From Syncephalis fuscata (taxonomy: Eukaryota; Zoopagomycota; Zoopagomycetes; Zoopagales; Piptocephalidaceae), in assembly GCA_025786725.1 (NCBI GenBank), contig JAHLTZ010000115.1, positions 1 to 25,991 on the forward strand: DNA of 25,991 nucleotides, given 5' to 3'. The translations under genes were made by a program, and so were the position numbers. Below, one piece after another: positions 2,482 to 9,002 of this stretch; within the stretch, counting starts at the first letter, position 1; each line of letters starts with the position of its first letter. The notes under the pieces are model-generated. The model did no database searches, was not told where the DNA came from, and worked only from the letters and a program-made list of their open reading frames with translations.

Positions 2482-3044
2482 TTAAGTATCGTTAATGACG
2501 CACAAATAAATACGTTATAATGTTTATGTAAAAATAACTTTTCTAAATTCATATATTAATTGGTTAAGGATGGAAAAAACACTTTGGCAATACGTAAACG
2601 TGACAGTTAATTTGTCCTTACTGTATTGTATAGTGTCAAACTTTATACCTATTATGATTAGCATTATCGACGATGATATTGCTAATGTTTAAATTCAAAT
2701 CAAATATAGGCATAGATATAGCATATTAACCAAATATAATTAATGAAACCATGTGTTTATTACTGCAAGTTTGCATGGCTGAATAAACACAGCCAGATGC
2801 AGATTTCTTGATAATGTAATGGCATCATTAATTAAGAGTTGAATAGACCGGAGCATTGGTTGGAATTTGATATGTGAATGAACTGGACAGTAACTAGCTG
2901 GTGGTCTTGTTTTTGTCGAATAGATACTTAAAGTGTATTAGATTACCATTTTAGTAACACTGAAAATGCCAATGCATTTAAAGTATGGTTATCCTATTAA
3001 TAAATAATATGCCACATACGATGTGATTAGTTTAGTATATAGTA
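2482..3044. other. AT-rich convergent intergenic region
   Basis: This is the 3' side of both the enolase-phosphatase (+) and the microexon gene (-). No coding signal is visible on either strand. The stretch from about 2990 to 3044 still looks like a monomer of the neighbouring array: on the minus strand, donor GTAAGT at 3058-3062, a TACTAAAC branch-like site and TTAATAG at 2994-2998 are present. That would offer an alternative last intron with an immediate TGA stop. Confidence 0.5.
2505..2510 (+). terminator. Poly(A) signal of enolase-phosphatase
   Basis: AATAAA begins 24 nt after the TGA stop, the usual position for a eukaryotic polyadenylation signal. Seen in sequence; use not shown. Confidence 0.5.
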
Positions 3045-6000
3045 TTATACAGCTATACTTACTGTTTATAAATACAAGTTATCCGATACAAAATGTATGG
3101 TATTCAATTAGTGCATGATCAATGTTATAAAATGCCATTTATCAATTATTGATACAGGCCATTAAACAAAAATATCGCATAGTGTATAATTAATATTAAC
3201 GCTACTTACAAACTATTGGTATAAGTTATTAAACACATACGAAATATAGCATGTAATTAATACATAGTTAATTGCCATACAATGCTGTTTACTGGCTATT
3301 GGTGCAATTTATCAAATAACCGCAGTACATGGCATTTAATTAGTATGCCATTCAATAATTATACAATGTTACTTACGCGCTATTAATGCAGGCCATTAGG
3401 CACACATATTGCACAGCATGTAATTAGTACGTATTCAATAAATATACATTACTACTTACAAGCTATTAATGCAAGTTAACAAACAATCGCGGTATATAAT
3501 ATGTAGTTAGTATATAATTGATTACTATGTGATGCTACATACAAGCTATTAATGCAAGTCATTAAGCATACATATGTATAGCATATAATTAACATAAAAT
3601 TGAATAATATAAATGTTACTTACTATCTATTAATGCAAATCACCAAGCACATACAATGCATACCATGTAATTAGTACATAGTTAATGAATATACAATACC
3701 ACTTACTTGCTATTAGCATAGTTATTAAGTATAAATTACACCATATGTTTAGTATGTAATTGCTTAATAAATAGTACTACTTACTGTCTATTAGTATAAA
3801 CCATTAAACACGTATAGCGCATATAATGTAATAAGTACATAAGCAATGAATATGCAGTATCACTTACCTGCTGTTGGCGTAGCTATTACACACAATTATA
3901 TTATATGTTTAGTATGCAGTTGCTTAATAGACCATACCACTTACGAGCTATCAATGCAAACCATCAAACACATAGTGCATAGTATATGGTTAGTACATAG
4001 CTAATAAATATGCAGTATCACTTACCTGCTATTGGCGTAGCTATTACACACAATTATATTATATGTTTAGTATGCAGTTGCTTAATAGACCATACCACTT
4101 ACGAGCTATCAATGCAAATCATCAAACACATAGTGCATAGTACATGGTTAGTACATAGCTAATAAATATGCAGTATCACTTACCTGCTATTGGCGTAGCT
4201 ATTACACACAATTACATTATATGTTTAGTATGCAGTTGCTTAATAGACCATACCACTTACGAGCTATCAATGCAAATCATCAAACACATAGTGCATAGTA
4301 CATGGTTAGTACATAGCTAATAAATATGCAGTGTCACTTACCTGCTATTGGCGTAGCTATTACACACAATTACATTATATGTTTAGTATGCAGTTGCTTA
4401 ATAGACCATACCACTTACGAGCTATCAATGCAAATCATCAAACACATAGTGCATAGTACATGGTTAGTACATAGCTAATAAATATGCAGTGTCACTTACC
4501 TGCTATTGGCGTAGCTATTACACACAATTACATTATATGTTTAGTATGCAGTTGCTTAATAGACCATACCACTTACGAGCTATCAATGCAAATCATCAAA
4601 CACATAGTGCATAGTACATGGTTAGTACATAGCTAATAAATATGCAGTGCCACTTACCTGCTATTGGCGTAGCTATTACACACAATTACATTATATGTTT
4701 AGTATGCAGTTGCCTAATAGACCATACCACTTACGAGCTATCAATGCAAACCATCAAACACATAGTGCATAGTACATGGTTAGTACATAGCTAATAAATA
4801 TGCAGTGTCACTTACCTGCTATTGGCGTAGCTATTACACACAATTATATTACATGTTTAGTATGCAATTGCTTAATAGGCCATGCCACTTACGAGCTACC
4901 AATGCAAACCATCAAACACATAGTGCATAGTAAATGGTTAGTACATAGCTAACAAATATGCAGTATCACTTACTCCCTATTAGCATAGTTATTAAACAGT
5001 TTATATTACATTAGTATGCAATTGCTTAATAAACCGTGCCACTTACAAACTATTAATGTATTTGTCAAACACATAGTGCACAGTATATAATTAGTACATA
5101 GCTAATAAATATGCAATGTCACCTACTTGATATCGGCGTAGCTATTACACACAATTATATTACATGTTTAGTATGCAATTGCTTAATAGACCATGCCACT
5201 TACGAGCTATCAATGCAAACCATCAAACACATAGTGCATAGTAAATGGTTAGTACATAGTAAATGGTTAGTACATAGCTAACAAATATGCAGTATCACTT
5301 ACTCCCTATTAGCATAGTGATTAAACAGTTTATATTACATTAGTATGCAATTGCTTAATAGACCATGCCACTTACAAACTAGCAATGCAAATCATCAAAC
5401 ACATAGTGCACAGTATATAATTAGTACATAGCTAATAAATATGCAATGTCACCTACTTGATATCGGCGTAGCTATTACACACAATTATATTACATGTTTA
5501 GTATGCAATTGCTTAATAGGCCATGCCACTTACGAGCTATCAATGCAAACCATCAAACACATAGTGCATATTACATGGTTAGTACATAGCTAACAAATAT
5601 GCAGTATCACTTACTCCCTATTAGCATAGTGATTAAACAGTTTATATTACATTAGTATGCAATTGCTTAATAGACCATGCCACTTACAAACTATTAATGT
5701 ATTTTGTCAAACACGTATAGCGCACAGTATATAATTAGTACATAGCTAATAAATATGCAGTGTCACCTACTTGATATCGGCGTAGCTATTACACACAATT
5801 ATATTACATGTTTAGTATGCAGTTGCTTAATAGACCATGCCACTTACGAGCTATCAATGCAAACCATCAAACACATAGTGCATATTACATGGTTAGTACA
5901 TAGCTAACGAATATGCAGTATCGCTTACTCCCTATTAGCATAGTTATTAAACAGTTTATATTACATTAGTATGCAATTGCTTAATAGACCATGCCACTTA

Positions 6001-9000
6001 CAAACTATTAATGTATTTGTCAAACACATAGTGCACAGTATATAATTAGTACATAGCTAATAAATATGCAGTGTCACCTACTTGATATCGGCGTAGCTAT
6101 TACACACAATTATATTACATGTTTAGTATGCAATTGCTTAATAGGCCATGCCACTTACGAGCTACCAATGCAAACCATCAAACACATAGTGCATAGTAAA
6201 TGGTTAGTACATAGCTAACAAATATGCAGTATCACTTACTCCCTATTAGCATAGTGATTAAACAGTTTATATTACATTAGTATGCAATTGCTTAATAGAC
6301 CATGCCACTTACAAACTAGCAATGCAAATCATCAAACACATAGTGCACAGTATATAATTAGTACATAGCTAATAAATATGCAATGTCACCTACTTGATAT
6401 CGGCGTAGCTATTACACACAATTATATTACATGTTTAGTATGCAATTGCTTAATAGGCCATGCCACTTACGAGCTATCAATGCAAACCATCAAACACATA
6501 GTGCATATTACATGGTTAGTACATAGCTAACAAATATGCAGTATCACTTACTCCCTATTAGCATAGTGATTAAACAGTTTATATTACATTAGTATGCAAT
6601 TGCTTAATAGACCATGCCACTTACAAACTATTAATGTATTTTGTCAAACACGTATAGCGCACAGTATATAATTAGTACATAGCTAATAAATATGCAGTGT
6701 CACCTACTTGATATCGGCGTAGCTATTACACACAATTATATTACATGTTTAGTATGCAGTTGCTTAATAGGCCATGCCACTTACGTTCTAGTAATGCAAA
6801 CCATTAAATAAATAGTGCATAGTATATGGTTAGTACATAGCTAACGAATATGCAGTATCACTTACTCCCTATTAGCATAGTGATTAAACAGTTTATATTA
6901 CATGTTTAGTATGCAATTGCTTAATAGACCATGCCACTTACAAACTATTAATGTATTTTGTCAAACACGTATAGCGCACAGTATATAATTAGTACATAGC
7001 TAATAAATATGCAGTGTCACCTACTTGATATCGGCGTAGCTATTACACACAATTATATTACATGTTTAGTATGCAATTGCTTAATAGGCCATGCCACTTA
7101 CGAGCTACCAATGCAAACCATCAAACACATAGTGCATAGTAAATGGTTAGTACATAGCTAACAAATATGCAGTATCACTTACTCCCTATTAGCATAGTGA
7201 TTAAACAGTTTATATTACATTAGTATGCAATTGCTTAATAAACCGTGCCACTTACAAACTATTAATGTATTTGTCAAACACATAGTGCACAGTATATAAT
7301 TAGTACATAGCTAATAAATATGCAATGTCACCTACTTGATATCGGCGTAGCTATTACACACAATTATATTACATGTTTAGTATGCAATTGCTTAATAGGC
7401 CATGCCACTTACGTTCTAGTAATGCAAACCATTAAATAAATAGTGCATAGTATATGGTTAGTACATAGCTAACGAATATGCAGTATCACTTACTCCCTAT
7501 TAGCATAGTGATTAAACAGTTTATATTACATGTTTAGTATGCAATTGCTTAATAGACCATGCCACTTACAAACTATTAATGTATTTGTCAAACACGTATA
7601 GTGCACAGTATATAATTAGTACATAGCTAATAAATATGCAATGTCACCTACTTGATATCGGCGTAGCTATTACACACAATTATATTATATGTTTAGTATG
7701 CAATTGCTTAATAGACCATGCCACTTACGTTCTAGTAATGCAAACCATTAAATAAATAGTGCATAGTATATGGTTAGTACATAGCTAACGAATATGCAGT
7801 ATCACTTACTCCCTATTAGCATAGTGATTAAACAGTTTATATTACATGTTTAGTATGCAATTGCTTAATAGACCATGCCACTTACAAACTATTAATGTAT
7901 TTTGTCAAACACGTATAGCGCACAGTATATAATTAGTGCATAGCTAATAAATATGCAGTGTCACCTACTTGATATCGGCGTAGCTATTACACACAATTAT
8001 ATTACATGTTTAGTATGCAATTGCTTAATAGGCCATGCCACTTACGAGCTATCAATGCAAACCATCAAACACATAGTGCATATTACATGGTTAGTACATA
8101 GCTAACAAATATGCAGTATCACTTACTCCCTATTAGCATAGTGATTAAACAGTTTATATTACATTAGTATGCAATTGCTTAATAGACCGTGCCACTTACA
8201 AACTATTAATGTATTTGTCAAACACGTGTAGTGCATAGTATATAATTAGTACATAGCTAATAAATATGCAGTGTCACCTACTTGATATCGGCGTAGCTAT
8301 TACACACAATTATATTATATGTTTAGTATGCAGTTGCTTAATAGACCATGCCACTTACAAGCTATTAGTACAAATTATTAAACACATATAGTGCATAGCA
8401 TATAATTAGTACATAGTCAATTGGTTTACAATGCTACTTACAAGCTAGTAATATATAGTATCAGATACACGTAGTGTATTATATATGTTTAGTGTATATT
8501 AAATTGACATACAATTTCACTTACGAACTATTAAGTTTAAATTGATAATAAGACAATATTTAGTTTAGATAGCCTATTTTTACTGTGACTTACCTTTTAT
8601 TAATTTAAATGCAATACATTCGTATCATCAGTGGAGTGTTTAGTTATTTTTTACAGTAAACCTACTCTTAGCCAATGGTCCTAATTAAACCATTATTTAT
8701 TAACAAGCAGCAATTAATTAGCATATCGTTAAACATATACAGCCAACACTTACCAACTGTTTAAGCATGTTTATAGCATGTATAGCAGCATTGAATAAGC
8801 GTTAGAACAATGGTCAATAATTACGACTTACCAACTAATACCATTATCAGTTGAATATAATGTTAGTAAGCATAAGATTATTAAATATTTATTGTAGTTA
8901 CAACATACCACGTCGAATTAGAGCCGACCTAGCATCCACCATGAATGTAAAGACTGTAAAAGTCACAATAATGATGCAGACGACGGCAATAGAAAGCTTC

Positions 9001-9002
9001 AT
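3045..9002 (-). CDS. Predicted secreted repeat protein built from ~71 microexons
   Basis: No known family is recognised. Exon 1 (8909-9002) encodes a signal peptide: MKLS, a hydrophobic core (IAVVCIIIVTFTVFTFMV), then DARSALIRR with a dibasic Kex2-like end. It stops at a GTATGT donor in phase 1. Downstream, monomers carry GTAAGT (or GTAGGT, GTATGT), usually TACTAAY, and TAG, followed by a 3- or 15-nt microexon. I count 52 three-base and 19 fifteen-base microexons. In phase 1 none gives a stop. The predicted chain is about 183 aa: VVGPLAKIPSS, STPIS, ten IW[T/K]PTPIS units, IWTPTPIA, then APTPIA repeats, ending DTNTSSPILSIAV. The last exon is probably 3045-3061 (TAA); an alternative acceptor at 2994 gives TGA at once. 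About 9% of the 5,958 bp is coding. Whether all microexons are spliced in is inference; a noncoding satellite is the alternative. Confidence 0.62.
3199..3867 (-). repeat. Degenerate 3' flank of the intron-microexon array
   Basis: Single diverged monomers of about 75-85 bp. Predicted microexons on the minus strand, in transcription order: ACA 3785-3787, CAA 3707-3709, ATA 3624-3626, CTT 3543-3545, CTT 3460-3462, CGC 3377-3379, CCA 3293-3295 and TTT 3210-3212. In the frame set by the signal-peptide exon they read DTNTSSPI. Monomer bodies have drifted strongly, yet most keep GTAAGT (GTATGT at 3537-3542, GTAAAC at 3287-3292), TACTAAY or TATTAAT, and AATAG. That is the pattern expected if the splice signals are under selection. 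The intron between ATA and CTT lacks a TACTAA match. Confidence 0.7.
3868..4892 (-). repeat. 158-bp dimeric intron-microexon array
   Basis: Seven 15-nt A microexons (starts 3868, 4026, 4184, 4342, 4500, 4658, 4816) alternate with six CTC microexons (3945, 4103, 4261, 4419, 4577, 4735). The period is exactly 158 bp in every step. Intron lengths alternate 78 and 62 nt. A reads CTACGCCAATAGCAG (3868 has ACA in place of ATA), so with CTC the pair encodes APTPIA in the phase-1 frame. Copies are nearly identical, implying recent homogenisation. Branch sites are TACTAACC in the 78-nt intron and TACTAAAC in the 62-nt intron. Confidence 0.9.
4893..8296 (-). repeat. ~313-bp tetrameric higher-order intron-microexon array
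   Basis: Eleven copies of a four-monomer unit. In transcription order each has A' (15 nt, CTACGCCGATATCAA), D (TTT), C (GGA) and B (CTC or AAC). A' starts: 8282, 7969, 7652, 7336, 7025, 6708, 6394, 6082, 5771, 5457, 5127. D: 8200, 7886, 7570, 7256, 6942, 6625, 6313, 6002, 5688, 5376, 5047. C: 8127, 7810, 7494, 7183, 6866, 6552, 6240, 5929, 5615, 5303, 4974. B: 8046, 7729, 7413, 7102, 6785, 6471, 6159, 5848, 5534, 5204, 4893. Unit lengths are 311-317 bp, and 330 where an 18-bp duplication sits. Intron lengths cycle about 79, 70, 78 and 62 nt. The encoded unit is IWTPTPIS, or IWKPTPIS where B is AAC (7729, 7413, 6785). D resembles B and C resembles A, so the tetramer probably arose from two dimers. 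Confidence 0.9.
8354..8908 (-). repeat. Degenerate 5' flank of the intron-microexon array
   Basis: Diverged units next to the signal-peptide exon. Microexons in transcription order: TTG 8832-8834, TTG 8754-8756, a 15-nt exon 8666-8680 (GACCATTGGCTAAGA), TTC 8525-8527, CTT 8442-8444 and CTT 8359-8361. In phase 1 they give VVGPLAKIPS. Branch-like sites TTACTAACA, TTCTAACG, AACTAAAC and TACTAAT precede the acceptors. The 15-nt exon is followed by GTAGGT, the same donor seen after every A' exon. The order of signals is kept although the sequence between them no longer resembles the core array. Confidence 0.65.
8589..8595 (-). other. Zero-nucleotide exon / recursive-type splice site
   Basis: On the minus strand AG (8594-8595) is followed directly by GTAAGT, with no exon base between. 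The acceptor side has ACTAAAC about 50 nt upstream and a run ending AATAAAAG. This juxtaposed acceptor-donor is the form of a recursive splice site and would remove the ~150-nt region between exons 8666-8680 and 8525-8527 in two steps without changing frame. It may equally be a unit whose microexon was lost. Confidence 0.45.

Follow-up and report, generated by a model that had tools for sequence, protein, structure and literature searches.

Exons of a few nucleotides (nt) are known mostly as single cases in ordinary genes, according to PMC8042270, which includes the splicing of a 3-nt exon in mouse Ncam; similarly, PMC11121469 describes a single regulated microexon in Trichoderma Xlr2. Here, we describe a locus that differs from Ncam and Xlr2 in that whole coding regions, rather than single exons within ordinary genes, appear to consist of microexons. 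The locus is a tandem array in a 25,991-nt stretch of DNA from the zoopagalean fungus Syncephalis fuscata (contig JAHLTZ010000115.1, positions 1–25,991 of the forward strand; hereafter "the window"), the assembly of which (GCA_025786725.1) comprises 28.95 Mb in 299 contigs. We propose, with a probability of about 0.88, that the gene in the window belongs to a large secreted-peptide family whose mature part is encoded almost wholly in one-codon exons.

Two described systems come closest. The micro-exon genes (MEGs) of Schistosoma mansoni are summarized in PMC10526429 as 35 genes with 10–20 short exons of 3–81 bp (abstract) or 6–81 bp (text), mostly 15 bp, and introns of ~0.1–5 kb; the same text calls them hard for automatic annotation. 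Like MEGs as portrayed there, the Syncephalis genes join a signal peptide to many small, mostly symmetric exons, and would give fast-evolving secreted proteins of a parasite. Unlike in MEGs, the exons are nearly all 3 nt long, the introns (median ~78 nt) are homologous to one another, there are at least 150 signal exons, and skipping is not visibly selected. Aphid bicycle genes, as given in PMC9168663, have ~17 exons on average, in phase 2, and a megacycle gene has >100 microexons. That source also describes a large family of putative secreted effectors with many small, one-phase internal exons and fast divergence, all of which recur in Syncephalis; the Syncephalis family departs from it in having one codon per exon, phase 1, one intron family, and intronless siblings. 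The cysteine columns of 15 aligned intronless members are spaced otherwise than bicycle CYC motifs, no dedicated motif comparison having been made. A profile of the same 15 members, searched against 5.8 billion proteins, gave 14 matches, all of them Syncephalis fuscata proteins and none a MEG (no direct comparison with MEG sequences was made). The parallel with MEGs and bicycle genes drawn in the original prediction, which was made from the window sequence, holds as a structural analogy only, with no sign of kinship so far as the comparisons reach.

Two further comparisons concern fungal effectors and mobile introns. SP7-like effectors carry tandem repeats and several introns, and introner elements are many near-identical introns in one genome; in apparent contrast, nearly all Syncephalis introns located to date fall within the arrays of a single gene family. 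The SP7-like proteins of Glomeromycotina (a fungal secreted effector family; PMC11333574) and the putative effectors of Syncephalis are likened here by description only. The literature searched, which did not extend to preprints and most subscription journals, contains no account of genes with one-codon exons from Syncephalis or any other fungus.

The predicted gene lies on the minus strand of the window (Table 1). Its first exon (94 nt, ATG at 9002) ends in phase 1 at a GTATGT donor (8908) and is followed directly by the array, as originally proposed; an identical copy of the exon lies elsewhere in the assembly (C24:517344–517439; C and L are our labels for contigs and loci). A first codon-blind splice parse gave 69 exons, of which 50 are 3 nt and 19 are 15 nt long, the latter consisting of 11 CTACGCCGATATCAA, six CTACGCCAATAGCAG, one CTACGCCAACAGCAG, and one GACCATTGGCTAAGA. 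Two more, CCA (3295–3293, with the weak donor GTAAAC) and TTT (3212–3210), were added by eye. The resulting 71 microexons, together with the first and last exons, reproduce the ~73-exon gene of the original prediction; all 71 are multiples of 3, and the chain is open in phase 1 throughout (71/71), a TGA closing it as it enters the terminal exon at 2993. A differently weighted second parse, which had fewer errors than the earlier parsing without being free of them, also yielded 69 exons (58 of 3 nt, 11 of 15 nt). In it, CAG takes the place of the 15-nt CTACGCCAATAGCAG exons, only one of the first three exons is retained, CCA and TTT are included, and the chain is likewise open (0 stops in 113 codons). 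AG-NNN-GTRAGY sites number 57 inside the array (minus strand), as against one on the minus and two on the plus strand in the rest of the window. The array units are AT-rich and recur with periods of 158 and 316 (2× and 4× ~79; Tandem Repeats Finder); Rfam and tRNA scans of the window returned no match. The product would be a Pro/Thr-rich repeat protein (STPISIWTPTPISIWKPTPIS...). A second copy of the gene (L009, C24:508500–518040) has an identical signal peptide and 50 rather than 69 parsed exons, pointing to variation in unit number between close copies; its 50 exons are also open (0 stops in 90 codons). Openness within the window alone is weak evidence, because its 71 exons represent only 16 different sequences. 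The strength of the microexon reading rests instead on diverged relatives elsewhere in the genome.

Such relatives are numerous. The pattern AATAG-NNN-GTAAGT occurs at 3,183 sites in the genome, compared with 28 for a reversed-pattern control, while spacers of 4, 5, and 6 nt in place of NNN give 54, 53, and 38 sites versus 50, 42, and 19 reversed. When 401 bp of the array were searched against their own assembly, 134 matches on many contigs were obtained, and relatives of the signal-peptide exon number at least 150. Twenty loci fetched by signal exon consist of 15 with an array (one cut by a contig end), two without introns, and three with few units; judged by sequence, 15 of 20 large loci have their own first exon with a putative signal peptide, followed by donor and array. 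Exact-pattern exons account for 268 of 399 exons in 13 parsed loci which, set against the 3,183 sites, extrapolates to an estimated ~4,700 one-codon exons in the genome. The assembly may undercount the family, since the array of L017 is interrupted by the end of contig C249. Several arrays occur as close pairs within single contigs (inverted at C1:475k/534k, C57:418k/475k, and C234:202k/235k; direct at C2:225k/245k), which suggests recent segmental duplication or assembly effects.

Coding potential was assessed by asking how stops and cysteines depend on exon order. Splice-parse weights were learned from AG-NNN-GTRWGY sites and applied to 13 loci; with no prior on length, 434 of their 440 exons are multiples of 3. 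The order counts leave out the window and L009, as well as L017 and the five loci lacking a main array, for which there is no parse. They also omit L019 beyond exon 37 and L025 beyond exon 27, the points at which the parse enters a second gene, and a 7-nt exon of L018. Read in order and in phase 1, the 13 chains contain 0 stops in 418 codons, while 2,000 within-locus shuffles of exon order give a mean of 23.9 and a minimum of 12; they contain 72 cysteines, versus a shuffled mean of 34.5 and maximum of 48. Phase 2 has 50 stops and phase 0 only one, but phase-0 codons do not depend on exon order. Twelve further loci, parsed with the weights from the first set, behave similarly: 322 of 328 exons are multiples of 3, there are two stops in 339 codons (a 2-nt exon of L049 accounts for one, L051 for the other) as against a shuffled mean of 11.4 and minimum of 3, and 29 cysteines as against a maximum of 26. 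The signal exon ends in phase 1 in all parsed loci of both sets (13/13 and 12/12), and the number of microexons per parsed gene ranges from 6 to 46 outside the window. Across 391 distinct sites, the exon NNN takes 51 of the 64 possible triplets between a near-fixed TAG and GTAAGT; the search pattern itself specified the AG and the donor consensus, but not the further flanking intron positions, which are strongly conserved as well. The stop and cysteine tests against shuffled order indicate that the order of the one-codon exons carries a message.

A second line of evidence comes from members without introns. L021, L028, and 20 small loci show a signal peptide followed by an uninterrupted, short, mostly cysteine-rich open reading frame; the 20 were chosen for a match beyond the signal exon or for a long open frame, and are not a basis for estimating the frequency of the intronless form. 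Fifteen intronless members align with five invariant mature cysteine columns. The intronless L030 (ACNRPSRGGWCGRKAECTYSECMEKCKTYC) matches the 45-exon chain of L024 (ACNNPSRDNGHQICTDCTYSECKKCKTYC) at 42.0 bits, and the chain/intronless matches L022/L034, L016/L043, and L020/L040 score 27.3–27.7 bits. In 1,300 control chains of shuffled order, the 95th percentile is 19.6 bits and the maximum 26.9; the best intronless match exceeds the former for 10 of 13 chains and the latter for 4 of 13. The window and L009 chains have no outstanding intronless match. Both forms share a 3' untranslated region (3'UTR) block of ~140 nt; of 53 sequences searched, 49 carry it downstream of their signal exon, at 70–97% identity. 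In a 47-row tree built from the signal exon and 3'UTR (near-duplicates L009 and L046 and the loci without a 3'UTR match, L017, L026, L051, and L059, are left out, and the bootstrap is not fully settled), the intronless label needs 11 changes, at least four of them forced by well-supported branches. We read this pattern as the complete loss of introns on repeated occasions, most likely by way of reverse-transcribed spliced mRNA. Among the intronless relatives are other mature types: L047 is Pro/Ser-rich, L045 and L046 have a CC motif, and protein P0012 has the same kind of signal peptide and no mature cysteine.

Array introns form one homologous family. Over 34 nt, ungapped identity is 64% between neighbors, 62% between loci, and 32% in shuffled sequence (a gapped measure, with a shuffled baseline of 0.747, was uninformative and was replaced by the ungapped one). 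That neighboring introns are hardly more alike than distant ones argues that arrays outside the window gene are not fresh tandem duplications. The intron 5' pattern with at most one mismatch has 1,937 genome matches (control: six), most of the first 100 listed being clustered and a few seemingly isolated (e.g., C13:497713). The original prediction placed TACTAAY in most units, which is true of the window (TACTAA in 64 of 70 introns; strict TACTAAY in 42 of 70, first parse) and does not extend to the relatives (123 and 121 of 425, respectively). A looser branch-type motif is present in 395 of the 425 relatives' introns versus ~80–98 when shuffled, lying at the very 3' end in about half. The arrays include long introns (579 nt in L023, 890 nt in L020); these begin T-rich and continue with similar sequence (...AGAGCTTGTG...CATAATTA...), like one in L019, and probably contain a related inserted element.

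Exons and introns diverge at different rates in most of the paralog pairs compared. In five of six, differences per letter are 1.6 to 3.3 times as frequent in exons as in introns: 4/69 versus 28/1575 (Fisher P = 0.04), 12/105 versus 135/2600 (P = 0.013), 49/81 versus 453/1880 (P = 1e-11), 53/79 versus 545/2009 (P = 5e-13), and 38/84 versus 658/2339 (P = 0.001). These counts set aside differently labeled columns (16 to 96 per pair), and the units of distant pairs are not necessarily orthologous. Across the six pairs, donors differ at 0–4% and signal exons at 0–12%. The L012 and L023 peptides differ by whole-residue insertions, as gain or loss of units predicts.

Most parsed members encode small, cysteine-rich peptides, one residue per exon; example chains are those of L024 (45 exons; ERYRFCNNPFSCGLACNNPSRDNGHQICTDCTYSECKKCKTYCEKCAFKTS...), L015 (GLEECWACMDECTTIYTTAECRKNNYCAKQCRK), and L027 ((G)SYGKACMVVCKDRGELSKEQCQGKCYNQCKADNPQP). 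Pro/Thr-rich chains form a minority that includes L054, L056, L060, and the window gene, the last being an unusual, locally amplified member. The original prediction of a secreted repeat protein is upheld in its central point and corrected in another: a signal-peptide exon joined to symmetric microexons is supported, far more by the genome than by the window, through the stop, cysteine, and intronless-paralog tests and the 3'UTR block (49/53), while most parsed relatives do not encode repeat proteins. The signal exons of parsed loci end in RR, likely a Kex2-type cleavage site, and the predicted mature peptide is roughly 15 to 65 residues long (about 147 for the window gene).

Table 1. Predicted features of the window gene (minus strand; 2805 is the end of the 3'UTR block match rather than a mapped exon end)
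Feature	Position	Strand	Phase	Basis
Exon 1: signal peptide and propeptide ending RR (MKLSIAVVCIIIVTFTVFTFMVDARSALIRR + 1 nt)	8909–9002	minus	1	
Intron array (introns mostly ~78 nt) with 71 microexons of 3 or 15 nt	2994–8908	minus		codon-blind splice parse plus two exons by eye; open chain
Homogenized core of 4-unit (316-bp) and 2-unit (158-bp) higher-order repeats	3829–8416	minus		Tandem Repeats Finder
First of 11 CTACGCCGATATCAA exons (15 nt)	8282–8296	minus		splice parse
TTT, last recognizable microexon ahead of the terminal exon	3210–3212	minus		by eye; also in second parse
Terminal exon: TGA stop across the junction and family 3'UTR block (2939–2805, matched at 70% identity)	2805–2993	minus		

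Elsewhere in the window, positions 890–1282 of the minus strand encode a CFA20-domain protein (Pfam E = 6.8e-19). The CFA20 family is ciliary, and the fungal group to which Syncephalis belongs is not known to have flagella. The domain by itself would suggest a zoosporic chytrid, a reading that the matches to Syncephalis fuscata proteins overturn. Sequence patterns for 5.8S and 18S rRNA gave no match, perhaps for want of rDNA in the assembly.

The splice grammar, the uniform phase, the order-dependent coding, and the homology to intronless paralogs can be read from the sequences themselves; for splicing order, processing, and secretion, we infer the following scheme. The signal-peptide exon ends just past the dibasic Arg-Arg, in phase 1. 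Behind it, homologous ~78-nt introns would hold the splicing information (near-fixed GTAAGT and TAG), leaving the 3 nt between two introns free to vary. Each exon would add one amino acid, its codon split 1+2 over the junction. Splicing would proceed by intron definition, probably with 5'-to-3' removal, each splice rebuilding the upstream context of the next donor. The product would carry a signal peptide and a short propeptide, to be cut at RR by a Kex2-like protease with release of the mature peptide. As every unit is symmetric, the gain or loss of an 80-bp unit would add or remove one residue without loss of frame. Several members would have become intronless through reverse transcription of spliced mRNA. 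On sequence evidence, the family members appear to be working genes, likely with a role as host-directed effectors or toxins of mycoparasitism; a title in the references of PMC6784888 describes the genus Syncephalis as an obligate mycoparasite.

That the array is a satellite or centromeric repeat, with splice-like words that are incidental or protein-binding, strikes us as barely credible: tandem structure and AT-rich units would suit such a repeat, but matching arrays occur on many contigs, those examined follow immediately on a signal-peptide exon and stop close to the shared 3'UTR block, and the order-dependent absence of stops, the cysteine excess, and the intronless homologs reveal a coding constraint. 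A narrower alternative, which we think improbable, is that the window array is a relic, removed as one long intron or unexpressed, and that only its less amplified relatives work. Homogenized 316-bp higher-order repeats, two 3'-end units without splice sites, an immediate stop in the terminal exon, and a repertoire of only 16 exon types are what a relic might display; against this, all 71 window exons keep phase and are open, the L009 copy on C24 is open too, and Pro/Thr-rich chains are also found in the diverged L054, L056, and L060. Much the same low weight attaches to the reverse origin, in which intronless genes are ancestral and were invaded at nearly every codon by a mobile, introner-like intron. 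The array introns are indeed one homologous family (62–64% versus 32% shuffled) with neighbors hardly closer than distant copies, and both forms are interspersed on the tree. Yet this route calls for ~20–45 insertions in each gene, one to a codon, invariably in phase 1, and several times over, where loss of all introns through complementary DNA (cDNA) is one event, and few of the first 100 intron-pattern places listed (of 1,937) look isolated.

The original prediction also held that many isoforms could be made by exon skipping without frame loss. The possibility that the family is an isoform generator like schistosome MEGs, with combinatorial skipping as its main function and a cloud of peptides per gene, is in our estimate slightly less likely still than the relic. 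Nearly all units are symmetric, such that the frame is kept on skipping, and most single skips would nonetheless stay open; to that extent the prediction survives. As an evolved function, skipping fares worse: adjacent exons joined in order give one stop in 721 junctions, while skipping one to five exons gives stops in 45/696, 44/671, 28/646, 33/621, and 35/596 junctions (4–7%), approximately the shuffled rate (mean 37.8 of 721, minimum 26 of 500). This count leaves out exons that are not multiples of 3 (L049, L050, L058, L059) and the last exon of L051. The single remaining in-order stop is in L051 (C179:147589–151889), where a Ser/Thr-rich chain has an apparent stop across two microexons with further parsed units after it; it is either a natural end or a parse overrun. 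With in-order junctions nearly stop-free and skips stopping at a random rate, selection appears to see full in-order inclusion, and combinatorial skipping is not favored as the evolved main function.

Several observations weigh against the one-codon-exon family itself, or against parts of it. The splice-parse weights favor 3-nt exons in site finding, though not in the lengths obtained without a prior. In the window, two units near 3180–3060 lack splice sites, giving a predicted last intron of 216 nt; with so few exon kinds and an immediate stop in the last exon, this copy could be decaying. Among chains compared with intronless members, L018, L019, and L025 (15.0, 17.7, and 17.3 bits) fall within the control range, and six more lie between the 95th percentile and the maximum. 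Database and structure searches lend little: the best Pfam hit of four family proteins (E = 0.051) is below the cut-off and not convincing, a search of the PDB with one family protein found no convincing relative, and one structure prediction gave a poor fold (predicted local distance difference test, pLDDT, 66). None of the 14 NCBI family proteins contains a long chain, and those that could be placed are intronless. P0003 is the same protein as L033 and P0004 the same as L028, P0005 has an intronless coding sequence, and others look truncated or partial: models P0006–P0010, P0013, and P0015 appear to break off a short way past the signal exon, in some cases seemingly within an intron. The public models of the family look misannotated, and this annotation neither confirms nor excludes splicing. 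(P0005 is encoded identically at C104:2803–3009 and C212:181832–182038, a pair that is a recent duplicate or redundant assembly.) As for divergence, the window and L009 are about equally different in exons (9/246) and introns (130/3416); the upstream flank (600 bp) varies by 1–25% between paralogs, and in L018/L019 by more than the exons do (85/575); and the two closest pairs show no excess of nonsynonymous over synonymous codon differences (3/1, 8/4). The faster change of exons is not proof of positive selection.

Taken at its full extent, the family would be a new architecture, a description we consider probable: a disulfide-rich effector arsenal spliced one amino acid at a time, from thousands of one-codon exons in unbroken runs separated by a single family of short introns, changing by single-residue units and repeatedly retrocopied to intronless genes. 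One-codon-exon genes may be viewed as an extreme new form of micro-exon gene, and a case for a new kind can be made. If the proposal is true, up to 71 consecutive exons, mostly of 3 nt, would be joined accurately in one transcript, setting a new lower bound for exon definition and making these genes a natural setting in which to study pure intron definition and sequential splicing. The family would also illustrate clearly how secreted peptides can evolve faster by virtue of gene structure, each unit being a frame-neutral, single-residue module. Much of the secreted peptide set of this mycoparasite may then escape gene prediction, and similar families may hide in other genomes, since aligners and gene finders struggle with 3-nt exons.

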